Notes under the pieces: generated by a model
Databases searched by the model: none
Told to the model about the DNA's origin: nothing
Seen by the model: the letters and a program-made list of their open reading frames with translations, nothing else
Program-made: the position numbers and the translations under genes
NCBI GenBank assembly: GCA_029945725.1
Contig: JAQSDB010000011.1
Coordinates: 186,001-250,000, forward strand
Length of the DNA stretch: 64,000 bases
Direction of reading: 5' to 3'
DNA from: a bacterium
GTDB lineage: Bacteria > Pseudomonadota > Gammaproteobacteria > Pseudomonadales > Moraxellaceae
Shown: piece by piece, positions 36,069 to 49,626 of the stretch
How the letters are laid out: every line of letters starts with the position of its first letter
Numbering within the stretch: position 1 is the first letter of the stretch

Positions 36069-36155
36069 GACAGGAAAATGCACACTCTCCGTCTTGCCAT
36101 GCCGCTGGCGCATGGGGACAATGCCGCGCATAAACTGTCTGACAGGATGTTTACC

Positions 36156-36821
36156 ATGACCACGTATTACGCTTTCAAACTTGCCGATGCCACCCAGCAG
36201 GGGATTGATGAGCTGCTGAAGAATCTGGATGCCGGCAGCAGTGCCCCCCAGCATGAGCTGCATACCCGCGTTTCCGTTGAAACCAGTGATGAAATCCTCA
36301 AGCATTCCGTGGAAGAGCTGATGCAGCGCTTTCAGTCGGGCGCGGAAGGTGCGGGCATCCTGTCGAGCCTGCTTGGCATTCTTAAAAGCACCTCGCATGT
36401 ACTGGTCCGGCAGTTGCTGGGCAAGCAGGACAACAAGGAAGTGGCGAAAATGGTGCAATACCTGCGCAGTCGCCGTGTTGTGCTTAAGGGTGAGGTTCTT
36501 TTCGGTTTTGAGATGCCGGCTGAGCTGGCGCAGCGCCTGAAAACCATTTTTGCCGCCATTGCCGCAGGTGATGGTGTGGCGCAGAAAGCCGGGCTGACGG
36601 CGGCCATGTTGTCCTTCACCGATGTGGCAGTGGCGCATTTCTATGATGATTTCACGGCACCCATGGAGCTTGGCTTTATCAAGCGCAAGGCCTCTGATAT
36701 CGGACGCAGCACCATCAGCAAAGGCCTGCACGTCGCCATGAACCGGCTTATTCCCCAGCTTGGACAAAAAGATCTGGTGGTGTTTGCCGGATTTTTTGAC
36801 GCCTTGTTTATTGATGCCTGA
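36156..36821 (+). CDS. Paralogue 1 of an unrecognised ~220-aa family
   Basis: 221 aa from ATG 36156, with AGGA 8 nt upstream (frame open to 36078 without support). The protein is soluble and largely helical, with no signal peptide. I do not recognise the family, but two relatives lie in this window. Shared anchors: Y-x-A-F at the N-terminus, a Q-x-x-L segment, D-E-I-L, L-K-S-T-x-x-x-L-V-R-Q-L-L-G-K-x-D-N, G-F-E-M-P, E-L-G-F-I-K-R-K-x-x-D-I-G and N-R-L-I-P. A tandem second copy starts 187 bp downstream. It follows queF by 87 bp, but function cannot be tied to queuosine. Confidence 0.7.
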   Translation: MTTYYAFKLADATQQGIDELLKNLDAGSSAPQHELHTRVSVETSDEILKHSVEELMQRFQSGAEGAGILSSLLGILKSTSHVLVRQLLGKQDNKEVAKMVQYLRSRRVVLKGEVLFGFEMPAELAQRLKTIFAAIAAGDGVAQKAGLTAAMLSFTDVAVAHFYDDFTAPMELGFIKRKASDIGRSTISKGLHVAMNRLIPQLGQKDLVVFAGFFDALFIDA

Positions 36822-37008
36822 TTAATGGCAGGGGGCAGGGCTGTCAGGCTTGCGGGGTCTTTTCAATAAAGGGCTCCGGGATGACGGCCGCTTCCCCGGC
36901 TTGTCTTTAAAGACACCCGGTTTGGTCTCTTTGGCCCTTTACTTCCCCGGCCTCTCCCTTAATCATCACGCACCGTGATACGACCTGCCTCCTTGAAGAG
37001 TGGTGCTC

Positions 37009-37680
37009 ATGAGCTGTTATTTTGCTTTTCGCGCTTCCGATGCCTTGCGCGATTCCAGTCTTGCCTTGCTGGACAATTTCGAGCGTCGCGACCCTGCGTC
37101 GCAAAGCGCCCTGTTTGTCAAAGTGGCGCAGCTGTTTGCCGATGAAATTGTTGATGTTCTTATTCTCAACATTGTCAGCGGCGCCGAATCGGGTCATTCC
37201 GGAGCCAGTGTGCTGGAACAGTTTGCCGGCGTTATAAAGTCCACAGTGAATACGCTGATCAAGCAGGTTCTCGGCAAGATGAACAACGATGAGCTGCGGC
37301 CATTGTCTTCCTATATGCGTGAGAGACTGCTGATACTGACAACGGCTGGTGTGACCAAGGAGTATGTAGCCTTTCCGATGCCGGCTGATTTCCATGAGCG
37401 TTTTCGTGCAGTACTGCATCAGGGCGCGCGCGGCGAGCAGAACCAGAAGGAGCTGCTGGCCTGCATGGAAATCTTTACCGAAATGGCGCATCAGGCTTTT
37501 TATGATGATTCGATGAAGCCGATCAAGCTGGGGTTTATCGGGCGCAAGGTCGTTGATATTGGCGGAGCCGCCATGCGCAAGGGCTCGCAAGCAGCGACTC
37601 GCCGTCTTGTTCCGGCGATGGACGGGGCCGAGCTCAAGCAGTTCTCGGAATACTTCTTGACCATGCTGATTACCGTCTAG
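37009..37680 (+). CDS. Paralogue 2 of the unrecognised ~220-aa family
   Basis: 223 aa from ATG 37009, with GAAGAG 8 nt upstream (a GTG at 37000 is in frame). Same anchors as paralogue 1: C-Y-F-A-F, S-Q-S-A-L, A-D-E-I-V, V-I-K-S-T-V-N-T-L-I-K-Q-V-L-G-K-M-N-N, A-F-P-M-P, K-L-G-F-I-G-R-K-V-V-D-I-G and R-R-L-V-P. Tandem duplication with strong divergence suggests an old event and distinct roles. A terminator follows immediately. Confidence 0.7.
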   Translation: MSCYFAFRASDALRDSSLALLDNFERRDPASQSALFVKVAQLFADEIVDVLILNIVSGAESGHSGASVLEQFAGVIKSTVNTLIKQVLGKMNNDELRPLSSYMRERLLILTTAGVTKEYVAFPMPADFHERFRAVLHQGARGEQNQKELLACMEIFTEMAHQAFYDDSMKPIKLGFIGRKVVDIGGAAMRKGSQAATRRLVPAMDGAELKQFSEYFLTMLITV

Positions 37681-42492: not shown

Positions 42493-43021
42493 AGTGTTTC
42501 CTTGGGGGCGGAATCGGTTTCTGGAGGATTGGTCTGGTTAGTCCATACCGCGGGAGCTCCTTCTGGGATTCCAGCGGTACGGCTTCAGTTTATTGCCTTG
42601 TCTTTACAGGGCTCTGGCAACAGGTTTTTCGGTAAAGCCTTAACGGCCATGAAAAGCCTGCTCACTGCGATACGTCAATCGTTATCAGTGTCTCGGCAGT
42701 CCCGGATGCTGCAGCATGTTTCAGCCGCCAGGCGGGCCGCTTAATGATCAGTCTCGTGCGCCAGCCTCTTTCTCTCTTCAGGCCATGGTGCGCTTGCGTG
42801 GCATCGCCTGCGGCTTCTACGAATTGCCAGTCCCCTGCAGCCCGACGACACTGCTCACGTTCCGCTTTTCCCTGCGCTGCCTCGTAATGGGGGCCATCAA
42901 GGATGCTGCCACGCGGCTTGTTGTTATTGCCCGTCAGTTGCCGGCAGGTTTGACAAGTGATCACGTTAAAAAATGGAACTGAAGCATGATTTTCAAGGAA
43001 TCAGGAAAAGGAGTGGCCAGG
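42493..43021. other. Spacer of ~530 bp without a supported gene
   Basis: Short frames on both strands (for example 42662-42964 minus) have no recognisable content or SD. It presumably holds promoters for the peroxiredoxin and the RCC1-like lipoprotein genes. No hairpin with a T-run was found. Confidence 0.35.
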
Positions 43022-44200
43022 ATGCTGACAAAAACAATTTCCCATTTTCTGGCTGGGGTTGCGCTGTCTGCGGCGGTCAGCGGGTGCAGTGGCTTGCCCA
43101 ACTTAAATGAAAAACCGGATTTGCGGCCTTTTGAAAAACCGTTAGCGATTAATACACGGCCCAAGCGCATGGCCATTGGTAACGGCTTTGTCGTGGCGAT
43201 CAAGGAAGATGGCACGGTATGGTCCTGGGGGTCTGGTTATTATGGCCAGTTAGGCACAGGCAAAGAAGACTGGCGGCATTTTCAACCCAAGCAACTGCCG
43301 CAATTGAGTGAGATGGTTGAGGTGGCTACAGGTATTTATCATGTGCTGGCGTTAAAAAGTGATGGCACGGTATGGGCATGGGGTAAGGGGTGGGAGTGGG
43401 TGCATAAGCCCCCTTTTTCGGTGAAAACAGGAGACAAGAAGGTTTATATCCCTACGAAGATAGTGGGGGTTGCTAATGTAAAACGTATTGCGGCTACGTC
43501 TAATGGCTATGTTTTCTTAACGAAAGACGGCGATTTAATTGGCTGGGGAAATAATGAGGGTGATCCCTTTAATAGCCCTGAAAAGATTGTCGCCACACCA
43601 ACGGTCTATGCCCATGTGCCCGATGCGGTGTCGTTATTTTCGGGTGTCGACGTCACGGGGGTGATTCGTGCAGATGGCTCCATAGTGACATGGGGGAGGC
43701 TGAATCAGGTCGATGAGAAAACCTTATCTACGATAAAAATAGCGGATATTAATACGGTCGGATTTTTGACTCAGATTCTTGCACAAGATGGCTTTGTGTA
43801 TGCCGCAACGTCGACGAGCACGGAGGTTCTTGGTCAAGGCAAGCCCATAAAAGGCGGCGGCTTTATGCGTGTAAAAAACCTGGGGCGCATTGTACAAATT
43901 GCAGATGTCATGGGGCCTATGGCTTTGGATGAAACCGGAAGGGTCTGGCAATGGGGCGCAAGTGTATTGTCGGAGCCAGATCCGGGTGGCAATGGTGTGA
44001 CTCGTGAATATACGCCGATCGTGACTTTTAAGTTAACGGGTGTTTCGGAGATATATCCATGGGCCGCTTTTACCAGGGATGGATCGGTGTATTTTTGGGG
44101 GCAGGGCCAGGGAGGAGTGCGCACCCGTGATTGGCAGGATCACCGGCCTTCACAGGAAGAGTGGACACAGCCCGAAAAGATTAACTGGACGTGGAAGTAA
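43022..44200 (+). CDS. RCC1-repeat beta-propeller lipoprotein
   Basis: 392 aa from ATG 43022 with AAGGAG 8 nt upstream (frame open to 42986). The signal peptide ends in a lipobox V-S-G-C, so it is lipid-anchored. The body is built of RCC1-type repeats, several with the I-K-E-D-G-T-V-W-S-W-G / G-Q-L-G-T-G pattern, forming a predicted seven-bladed propeller like the extracellular BLIP-II type. Such proteins bind other proteins; the partner is unknown. Codon use is visibly more AT-rich than in its neighbours, which hints at transfer. Confidence 0.85.
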   Translation: MLTKTISHFLAGVALSAAVSGCSGLPNLNEKPDLRPFEKPLAINTRPKRMAIGNGFVVAIKEDGTVWSWGSGYYGQLGTGKEDWRHFQPKQLPQLSEMVEVATGIYHVLALKSDGTVWAWGKGWEWVHKPPFSVKTGDKKVYIPTKIVGVANVKRIAATSNGYVFLTKDGDLIGWGNNEGDPFNSPEKIVATPTVYAHVPDAVSLFSGVDVTGVIRADGSIVTWGRLNQVDEKTLSTIKIADINTVGFLTQILAQDGFVYAATSTSTEVLGQGKPIKGGGFMRVKNLGRIVQIADVMGPMALDETGRVWQWGASVLSEPDPGGNGVTREYTPIVTFKLTGVSEIYPWAAFTRDGSVYFWGQGQGGVRTRDWQDHRPSQEEWTQPEKINWTWK

Positions 44201-47321: not shown

Positions 47322-47363
47322 GTGGCGCGGCGTCACTGCCAAGCCACGGATAACGTCGTCCAC

Positions 47364-47392
47364 AAAAAAGCCGGGAATTTCCCGGCTTTTTT
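47364..47392. terminator. Intrinsic terminator after the SDR gene
   Basis: AAAAAA-GCCGGG-AATTT-CCCGGC-TTTTTT, 42 bp after the stop. It can also serve the convergent small gene on the minus strand. Confidence 0.9.
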
Positions 47393-47425
47393 GTCACTTT
47401 TTTTCGCGCGTTCAGTGCCGTTGTT

Positions 47426-47816: not shown

Positions 47817-48512
47817 TCAGCGATAGGGGCGGCCGTTGAGCAGCACCATGTCGTGAAGATATTCCGTCACGGCCTGCAGGTGTTCGGTGGTGAGATCAGG
47901 GACCAGGCGCCGGATCATCAAATGCACGGCACCGCGAATGATGGTGACCGAGCCTTCGCTCAGCTTGCGCAGGATGAAGCCGAGCTTGAGCAGTTCGATC
48001 GGTGTGATCAGATAGGCTTCCAGCGCCAGATCGGTGATTTCATTCAGCATGTCCGTGAGTTCGGCGACATGCGTATGTGGATCGCTGCCCTTCATGTCGG
48101 ACACCAGTATCTGCATGCGCAGGCGCGTGGCATCACTGATGGGGAAGCCGATATAGGGCTTTTCCACGCCATCGGCAGCGGCCGCTACCAGCATGATGTT
48201 GCGGATGTAGTCGGCGAGCGGGATCAGTTGCTTGTTGTCCAGCTTGTGAATCACGGTGCGCGAGACGCTGTGTATCGTGCTCTTGATGGTGCTGACGGCA
48301 CCTGTCACCACTTTTTCCATGAAGTGACTGAGGCCGAGCAGTTCGGTCAGGTCGAGGAAAAAGACCTTGAGGATCTCGTCGGTGAAATCAATGATGATGC
48401 TGGTCATCAGGTCAGCCTGCGAGGCTGACGTGCGCGCGTCGATATTCTTCACCAGTTCGAGGGAATCGCGACGCAGCTCGGGGCTGGAGACAAAGGCAAT
48501 ATAAACGGTCAT
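47817..48512 (-). CDS. Paralogue 3 of the unrecognised ~220-aa family
   Basis: 231 aa from ATG 48512. The initiation region (CAGGATGTTTGC-ATG-ACC) closely resembles that of paralogue 1 (CAGGATGTTTACC-ATG-ACC). Protein anchors are shared: V-Y-I-A-F, S-Q-A-D-L, T-D-E-I-L-K, I-K-S-T-I-H-S-V, K-L-D-N-K-Q-L, G-F-P-I, L-K-L-G-F-I-L-R-K-L and I-R-R-L-V-P. It lies 61 bp downstream of the voltage-sensor-like gene on the same strand, so it is probably co-transcribed with it. No function can be assigned. Confidence 0.7.
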   Translation of the reverse strand: MTVYIAFVSSPELRRDSLELVKNIDARTSASQADLMTSIIIDFTDEILKVFFLDLTELLGLSHFMEKVVTGAVSTIKSTIHSVSRTVIHKLDNKQLIPLADYIRNIMLVAAAADGVEKPYIGFPISDATRLRMQILVSDMKGSDPHTHVAELTDMLNEITDLALEAYLITPIELLKLGFILRKLSEGSVTIIRGAVHLMIRRLVPDLTTEHLQAVTEYLHDMVLLNGRPYR

Positions 48513-48573
48513 GCAAACATCCTGATAACGATAGGCAGGGAGCGGTCGGGAAACTTTTTCGCGACCGGAAAGT

Positions 48574-49626
48574 CTAGGTAAGCGCGTCAGGGCTGGCAAG
48601 CGGGCTGTCGGGGCCATCGTTACCGGCCCCGGGCGCCTGCTTCCATTGCTGTATGCCGACCTGGGTCTTGAGCAGCTCCAGGGCATCCAGAACGATGCTG
48701 CGCAGGGCGGTATCCATCGCCGCATGCGGCTCGGTCAGCGTATCAAAAAGAGCGGTGGCCACATCGTGTACGGCGACATTGTCGCGGCGGCCGATGTCGC
48801 TCAGGACATCATGCAGCACCTGGGTGAGCAGGCTGCTGATGATGCTTTGCAGCTCGGTTTCAATGGCGGGGCCGGCAAACAGCAAACGCTTTTTCAGCTT
48901 CTGCAGATCCGCGTTGCAGGCAATGGCATGGCCTACGGTGTCGTCAAGATAGGGGCCGAGACGCTCCTTGTGCAGCTCGTGTACTTGTGTGCTGCTTTGC
49001 GCCAGCAGTCCTGCCAGCCACGGCACGATGATATGACGCTGTGGCTTCAGGACATCATCGGCCAGGCGGTGCGTCAGCGGGCCGCCGCTGCGGACTTCGC
49101 GCTGCACGCCTTCCAGTACATTGATGACGATGCGGTCCGACAGCTCCTCGATGACAATGTGGTAGTACTTGTACATCGCCACAAAGGGACTGCTTTCGGA
49201 AAGATCAATGACACCGATTTTTTGCAAGCGATACAGAATCGAGATCAGGCGCAGCAGGCGCAGGGCCCGGAAGGTCGGCAGCGGAATGCAGCCCAGCACG
49301 TCATACCAGTGCACAAAGGGATAGAAAAACCAGCGGTAATAGGTTTTCCGGTGGATCGCCAGCGCCCAGCGCAGACAGAGCTCGGTGATCAGGAAAAAGG
49401 TGAAGAAGGTGTCGTACACCAGCAGCTTGTTGTGCCAGTTGCGCTGATAGCCTTCGATCAATCCCGGGACATGGTCTTTCAGCAGGATGCCAAGACCACT
49501 GTTGAGCAGAATGACATCGGTCAGCAGCCACAGCAGATTGAGGGAGATCATCGCAATCAGCAGCAGGTCCAGCACCAGAGCCGATGCTTCGCTTTTACCC
49601 TTGAGCGCACGCCAGTAAATTTTCAT
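48574..49626 (-). CDS. Voltage-sensor-like membrane protein without a pore domain
   Basis: 350 aa. Four N-terminal TM helices have the layout of a voltage-sensing domain. S1 is at about 17-40. S2 at 68-91 has D72, E82 and R86. S3 at 101-115 has D109 in H-W-Y-D-V. S4 at 118-136 has R120, R123, R126 and R133 spaced every third or so residue. In an ion channel S5, a pore loop and S6 would follow, but residues 140-350 are soluble, helical and rich in L-A-D-D-V-L / V-H-D-V-A patterns, with no selectivity filter. It could be a voltage-gated proton channel-like sensor or a sensor coupled to its own cytoplasmic domain. Paralogue 3 is downstream. Confidence 0.65.
   Translation of the reverse strand: MKIYWRALKGKSEASALVLDLLLIAMISLNLLWLLTDVILLNSGLGILLKDHVPGLIEGYQRNWHNKLLVYDTFFTFFLITELCLRWALAIHRKTYYRWFFYPFVHWYDVLGCIPLPTFRALRLLRLISILYRLQKIGVIDLSESSPFVAMYKYYHIVIEELSDRIVINVLEGVQREVRSGGPLTHRLADDVLKPQRHIIVPWLAGLLAQSSTQVHELHKERLGPYLDDTVGHAIACNADLQKLKKRLLFAGPAIETELQSIISSLLTQVLHDVLSDIGRRDNVAVHDVATALFDTLTEPHAAMDTALRSIVLDALELLKTQVGIQQWKQAPGAGNDGPDSPLASPDALT

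Follow-up and report, generated by a model that had tools for sequence, protein, structure and literature searches.

In a 64,000-nucleotide stretch of a Moraxellaceae genome, hereafter the window, we identified a gene whose product belongs to a previously unnamed bacterial family, in which a voltage-sensing module without a pore is joined to an intracellular helical domain. The best-supported mechanism, to which we assign a probability of a little under one half, would be voltage sensing by the S1–S4 helices with output through the cytoplasmic helical domain. Such a small, stand-alone and expressible sensor may represent a new route by which a bacterial cell monitors the voltage across its membrane, and the family bears both on how membrane potential is read in bacteria and on the evolutionary recombination of sensor domains.

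Predicted structure of the sensor protein

The sensor gene occupies an entire ORF at 48574..49626 on the minus strand and encodes 350 residues. On the basis of the ORF call, its membership in a family and the substitution pattern, it is read as protein-coding and under purifying selection, with a pN of 0.0065 against a pS of 0.157 (pN/pS about 0.04) in the closest pair of congeners (G003 and G005) and about 60% identity among congeners. Stops or frame breaks interrupt the gene at L009/L065 (G008) and at G033:C17, and it may therefore be dispensable in some species.

An AlphaFold2 model built from a 67-sequence alignment (mean pLDDT 86.5, pTM 0.62) was combined with residue counts and, for S1, S2 and S4, with the hhalign register to delimit the helices, all encoded on the minus strand. 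S1 spans residues 14–42 (49501..49587) and includes D20, N30 and D37; S2 spans residues 68–92 (49351..49425) and includes D72, L79, E82 and R86; S3 spans residues 102–112 (49291..49323), includes D109 and carries the family motif [FY]PF[VIA]HWY[DE]; and the S4 segment covers residues 118–137 (49216..49275), with the model helix at 121–137. Two outer helices lie between S1 and S2. After S4, the model shows soluble helices alone, from residue 146 on, which form a well-predicted, all-helical C-terminal domain of residues 146–330 (48637..49191) with conserved residues at Y154, E160, E161, D164, R165 and W328. The earlier note had read S1–S4 features followed by a soluble domain in place of a pore from the sequence, and the model helices and the profile match to six-transmembrane (6TM) channels described below bear this out, with D72, E82, R86, D109, R120, R123, R126 and R133 each at the position given there and with the S4 helix recovered by structure prediction.

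The C-terminal domain gave no significant sequence or Foldseek match and no identifiable activity. No Pfam phosphatase match was obtained, and the CX5R motif is absent from residues 146–350. A relationship of this domain to the family of the neighboring paralogue 3 was also considered and rejected (hhalign probability 6%, not significant).

Homology to voltage-sensor domains

The N-terminal 142 columns of the family profile were compared by hhalign with 29 6TM Ion_trans channels from the same order, which gave probabilities of 92–93% and E values of 3e-7 to 7e-7. The alignment spans 96–97 columns with S1–S4 in register, pairing the S2 Glu with the S2 Glu, the S3 Asp with the S3 Asp, and R120, R123 and R126 with S4 arginines. 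Negative controls consisting of reversed profiles and 30 hydrophobicity-class-preserving shuffles scored 20–28, compared to 48 for the real profile, and the C-terminal profile did not match the same channels (probability 0.2%). By this comparison, the S1–S4 segment of the window protein is homologous to the S1–S4 module of the voltage-gated ion channel superfamily.

Pfam searches with single sequences agreed in direction, as Ion_trans was the Pfam family matched most often across members of the sensor family, in 20 of 67 members (best E 7.6e-4) and in 9 of the 23 members of a motif-independent set. The window protein itself has a sub-threshold Ion_trans match over residues 20–137 (E 0.63), and its 9.6 bits miss the PF00520 gathering cut-off of 25. 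Conversely, the family HMM matched an additional ORF besides the family's own members in two genomes (E 7e-6 to 9e-6); in one of them, G327, this second-best match (E 7e-6) overlaps a PF00520 ion-channel match. The top rows in VIA were NavAb/CavAb chains, with 3rvz_A superposed at 3.3 Å over 102 residues (model residues 13–137, Z 7.4), Z values of 7–8 being not decisive for helical bundles. A Foldseek search of the full model against the PDB yielded no match at E <= 0.001 and only generic helical and weak NavAb/NavMs rows, and comparison of the family sequence profile with PDB sequences returned nothing credible. Since the VIA Z value is insufficient alone and Foldseek gave no match at that threshold, the homology claim rests on the profile comparison with its controls.

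Conservation of sensor residues

Residues were counted in a 67-member set gathered with the search motif and in a 23-member set, A1, gathered without it. In the larger set, D72 and E82 are invariant (67/67 each) and R86 is present in 64/67, whereas the S4 positions R120, R123, R126 and R133 are retained in 63/67, 67/67, 67/67 and 66/67, respectively. Position 79 is Phe or Tyr in 60 of the 67 members and Leu in the window protein; lying three residues before the S2 Glu, it is placed like F56 of NavAb. The count for D109 in this set is biased, because D109 and its neighbors fall inside the collecting motif; in A1, this position is Asp in 12 members and Glu in 11. A1 also retains E82 in 22/23 and both R123 and R126 in 23/23, with D72 in 14/23, and it is in the clade containing Acinetobacter that D72 is often missing and D109 is replaced by Glu. 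A charge-transfer center is thus represented by Phe, Tyr or Leu at position 79, by E82 and by Asp or Glu at position 109, and these positions together with two to three S4 arginines are nearly invariant in the family. The spacing of D37, D72 and E82 additionally fits that of E32, N49 and E59 of NavAb, which are the ENC/INC residues of that channel (PMC13095418).

Within S4, R120, R123 and R126 follow a three-residue register, a serine (S129) occupies the next place, the fourth, and R133 falls outside this register; Pro/Gly is found where the helix begins. Three in-register arginines would in principle suffice for a sensor, with a gating charge that would be small because of their number, the serine at the fourth place and the Pro/Gly at the helix start.

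Absence of a pore and distribution of the family

No S5-P-S6 segment follows S4. In the window protein, no 19-residue window past residue 145 exceeds a KD value of 1.03, and a membrane segment after S4 was found in 0 of 90 aligned members, none of which has a 19-residue window above KD 1.6 there. Intact members are about 310–430 residues long among the pattern-scan matches listed, and HMM searches across the order and the phylum agree with a pore-less family. The absence of a pore claimed in the earlier note is thus upheld by hydropathy and the model, and no homologue with a normal pore was found; as an S4 helix is present and the pore is missing throughout the family, the reading as a voltage-sensor fold without a pore stands.

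A single-sequence query for related loci returned no matches, and the family was found with an alignment query. One pattern scan confirmed at least 595 relatives, from Moraxellaceae, Marinobacter, Alcanivorax, Ketobacter and Halomonas relatives and from metagenome-assembled genomes named as Bacteroidota, Calditrichota, Rhodothermota and Bdellovibrionota. The tree joins the rows of Bacteroidota, Calditrichota and Rhodothermota with two Pseudomonadota and two unassigned rows (98/98), leaving one Bacteroidota row unplaced. A contig filed under Rhodopirellula (L128) is probably misbinned, its sensor gene being nested inside Marinobacter. Among sampled genomes, the gene was present in 56 of 244 of the order and 20 of 398 of the phylum.

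Neither Pfam nor NCBIfam has a model that covers or consistently names the family. In Acinetobacter, some copies bear the annotation SecA; one of these (L026:7863-8909), labelled 'preprotein translocase subunit SecA', lies directly before minCDE and is mislabelled, as no result here supports that name. AdvA was also considered as the identity of the Acinetobacter homologue and was rejected as a separate protein.

Gene neighborhood

The sensor gene is followed, 61 bp downstream as the earlier note had it, by the ORF of paralogue 3 (47817..48512, minus strand, 231 residues), which is related by tblastn to two further ORFs of the window at 36078-36821 and 37000-37680 (E 2e-20 and 2e-29, respectively). 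These two, paralogues 1 and 2, stand in tandem on the plus strand just after queF. Members of the paralogue-3 family occur in 36 of 58 relative genomes, often two in tandem, and have no credible Pfam match.

Gene order in the window's genus runs from an acyltransferase through a DUF349 protein and tesA/ybbA/ybbP to the sensor gene, after which come paralogue 3, in some species, and an ankyrin-like gene. The other Moraxellaceae genera examined show an acyltransferase, in some cases the DUF349 protein, then the sensor gene, minC, minD and minE and, in most cases, the ankyrin-like gene, so that paralogue 3 sits where relatives have minCDE. The ankyrin-like gene, found at the end of the min cluster elsewhere, still adjoins the sensor gene in the window's genome (G000). 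Scans of the intergenic spacers for promoters and terminators gave results near chance, except for one strong terminator-like hairpin at 47362-47394 (15 pairs with a T tail) between the convergent SDR and ankyrin-like genes. A secreted-looking RCC1-repeat protein is encoded at 42986-44200 on the plus strand.

Orthologues of paralogue 3 (53–56% identity) were found in G000, G001, G004 and G007, and the orthologue adjoins the sensor gene in all three cases that could be checked on the contig. However, in G003, G005 and G008 the sensor gene is directly followed by the ankyrin-like gene without paralogue 3, and the further copies of the paralogue family in other genera do not adjoin the sensor gene in any of the loci examined. 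The coupling of the sensor to the third paralogue, which the earlier note had proposed along with a check of neighborhood conservation, is weak and is not supported by this check, since the adjacency is limited to some species of the window's genus and is lacking in the other genera and phyla examined. Paralogue 3 is therefore a genus-level neighbor and neither a conserved nor an obligate partner. Of the proposed arrangement of sensor, effector and partner family, the voltage-sensor homology without a pore holds family-wide, and the coupling to the third paralogue as a system is not supported.

Outside Moraxellaceae, the sensor gene stands alone and its neighbors vary by lineage. An amidase gene is adjacent in many Marinobacter, a DUF1631-GGDEF-EAL-PilZ protein is encoded next to it in some Pseudomonadales, and the Bacteroidota loci show no constant neighbor.

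Proposed mechanism and alternatives

In the mechanism we favor, the sensor bundle would sit in the inner membrane, where S4 would move, or be held, according to the membrane potential. The charge-transfer center would be formed by the Phe, Tyr or L79 side chain with E82 and D109, and D37 and D72 would lie on the outer side. S4 is predicted to run through a short linker into helix 146–179 of the cytoplasmic helical domain, so its displacement could reposition this domain toward a putative binding partner. The computations establish the S1–S4 homology, the lack of a pore, the retention of sensor residues and a folded C-terminal domain in the model; we infer the movement of S4 with voltage, the role of the C-terminal domain as output and its binding target. 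On a broader and more tentative reading, which we hold somewhat more doubtful than even, this would be the first prokaryotic family of pore-less voltage receptors, converting potential into a protein–protein or lipid-linked cytoplasmic signal without ion flux in several phyla.

An unlikely though serious alternative is that S1–S4 is a retired voltage sensor, serving as a membrane anchor and dimerization platform with static salt bridges and no voltage response. The few in-register S4 charges, the serine at the fourth place and the short S3 would suit such a role, as would the conservation of the S2–S3 loop (W99 and H106-W107, which the search motif covers in part) and of the start of the C-terminal helix (E160, E161, D164 and R165), which is as strong as that of S4. 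An S1–S4 module also persists in CNG channels, which are regarded as conducting independently of the membrane potential (PMC4256070). However, distant members keep E82, R86, R123, R126 and a mostly aromatic position 79, as a working charge-transfer center would need, and a plain anchor would allow more drift.

Conduction of protons, or of cations, through the sensor itself in the manner of Hv1 is improbable. The pore-less architecture agrees with it, and the position of N30, which by helix spacing could correspond to the selectivity Asp of Hv1, is Asp in 7 of the 23 A1 members, within the clade to which the relatives of Acinetobacter belong (e.g., L038 and L044). Against it, this position is Asn in the window protein and in all 67 members of the larger set, and FRALRLLRLISILYRL contains no Trp, so the S4 Trp that is a conserved feature of Hv1/VSOP (PMC10377628) is missing; an Hv-type channel has also been reported to be absent from prokaryotes (PMC10377628). 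Proton conduction is perhaps worth attention in the A1 members with Asp at the mid-S1 position.

A role as accessory to Min-based cell division is more improbable still. The placement of the sensor gene directly before minCDE in the other Moraxellaceae genera examined points to such a role, but the window's genome, which is 99% complete, retains the sensor gene and MinD was not detected in it (best match 27%, E 2e-9). The sister species G002 and G004 keep MinD at another place in the genome, and for G002 the search for the sensor gene gave no match. Min is thus not an obligate partner; in addition, the Marinobacter, Alcanivorax and Bacteroidota loci lack a conserved neighbor, and no min gene was noticed there. 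Finally, a detached sensor subunit assembling with a separately encoded pore protein is highly improbable: the genome shows no Ion_trans channel and has one Ion_trans_2 pore protein, but this lies on another contig without linkage, no S4–S5-type linker was seen, the well-folded C-terminal domain would be unexpected in such a subunit, and several relatives bearing the gene (e.g., G042, G055 and G057) own complete 6TM channels.

Comparison with known systems

Pore-less voltage sensors, namely Hv1, voltage-sensing phosphatases and TMEM266, are documented in eukaryotes, and according to a 2023 review all known prokaryotic voltage-sensing domains come with a pore (PMC10377628). The present family contradicts this rule; it does not contradict the statement in the same review that prokaryotes have no Hv, because the Hv1 S4 Trp is missing. 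Our literature search, with most subscription papers outside its reach, found no report of a bacterial sensor-only protein.

The bacterial channels of NavAb type (PF00520) share with the present family the four-helix module, the charge-transfer-center residues and three in-register S4 arginines, but the present family has no S5-P-S6 and no tetrameric pore assembly and carries a soluble helical domain instead. Hv1/VSOP likewise has a sensor domain without a separate pore and differs in its S4 Trp and, at what may be the corresponding mid-S1 position, in having Asp where the window protein has Asn. AdvA, a division protein of A. baumannii, resembles the window protein as an Acinetobacter membrane protein of a poorly known family and differs in its two predicted transmembrane helices and its DUF4175 assignment (PMC7481262). 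Voltage-sensing phosphatases such as Ci-VSP join a sensor domain to a cytoplasmic domain, although the window protein has no phosphatase domain and no CX5R motif in its C-terminal part. Vertebrate TMEM266, which is not known to conduct, combines a pore-less sensor domain with a following cytoplasmic helix (PMC13095418); it is eukaryotic, it is likened here by description only, and its S4 runs into a coiled coil in place of the multi-helix domain of about 180 residues. The closest architectures are TMEM266 and the voltage-sensing phosphatases minus their phosphatase.
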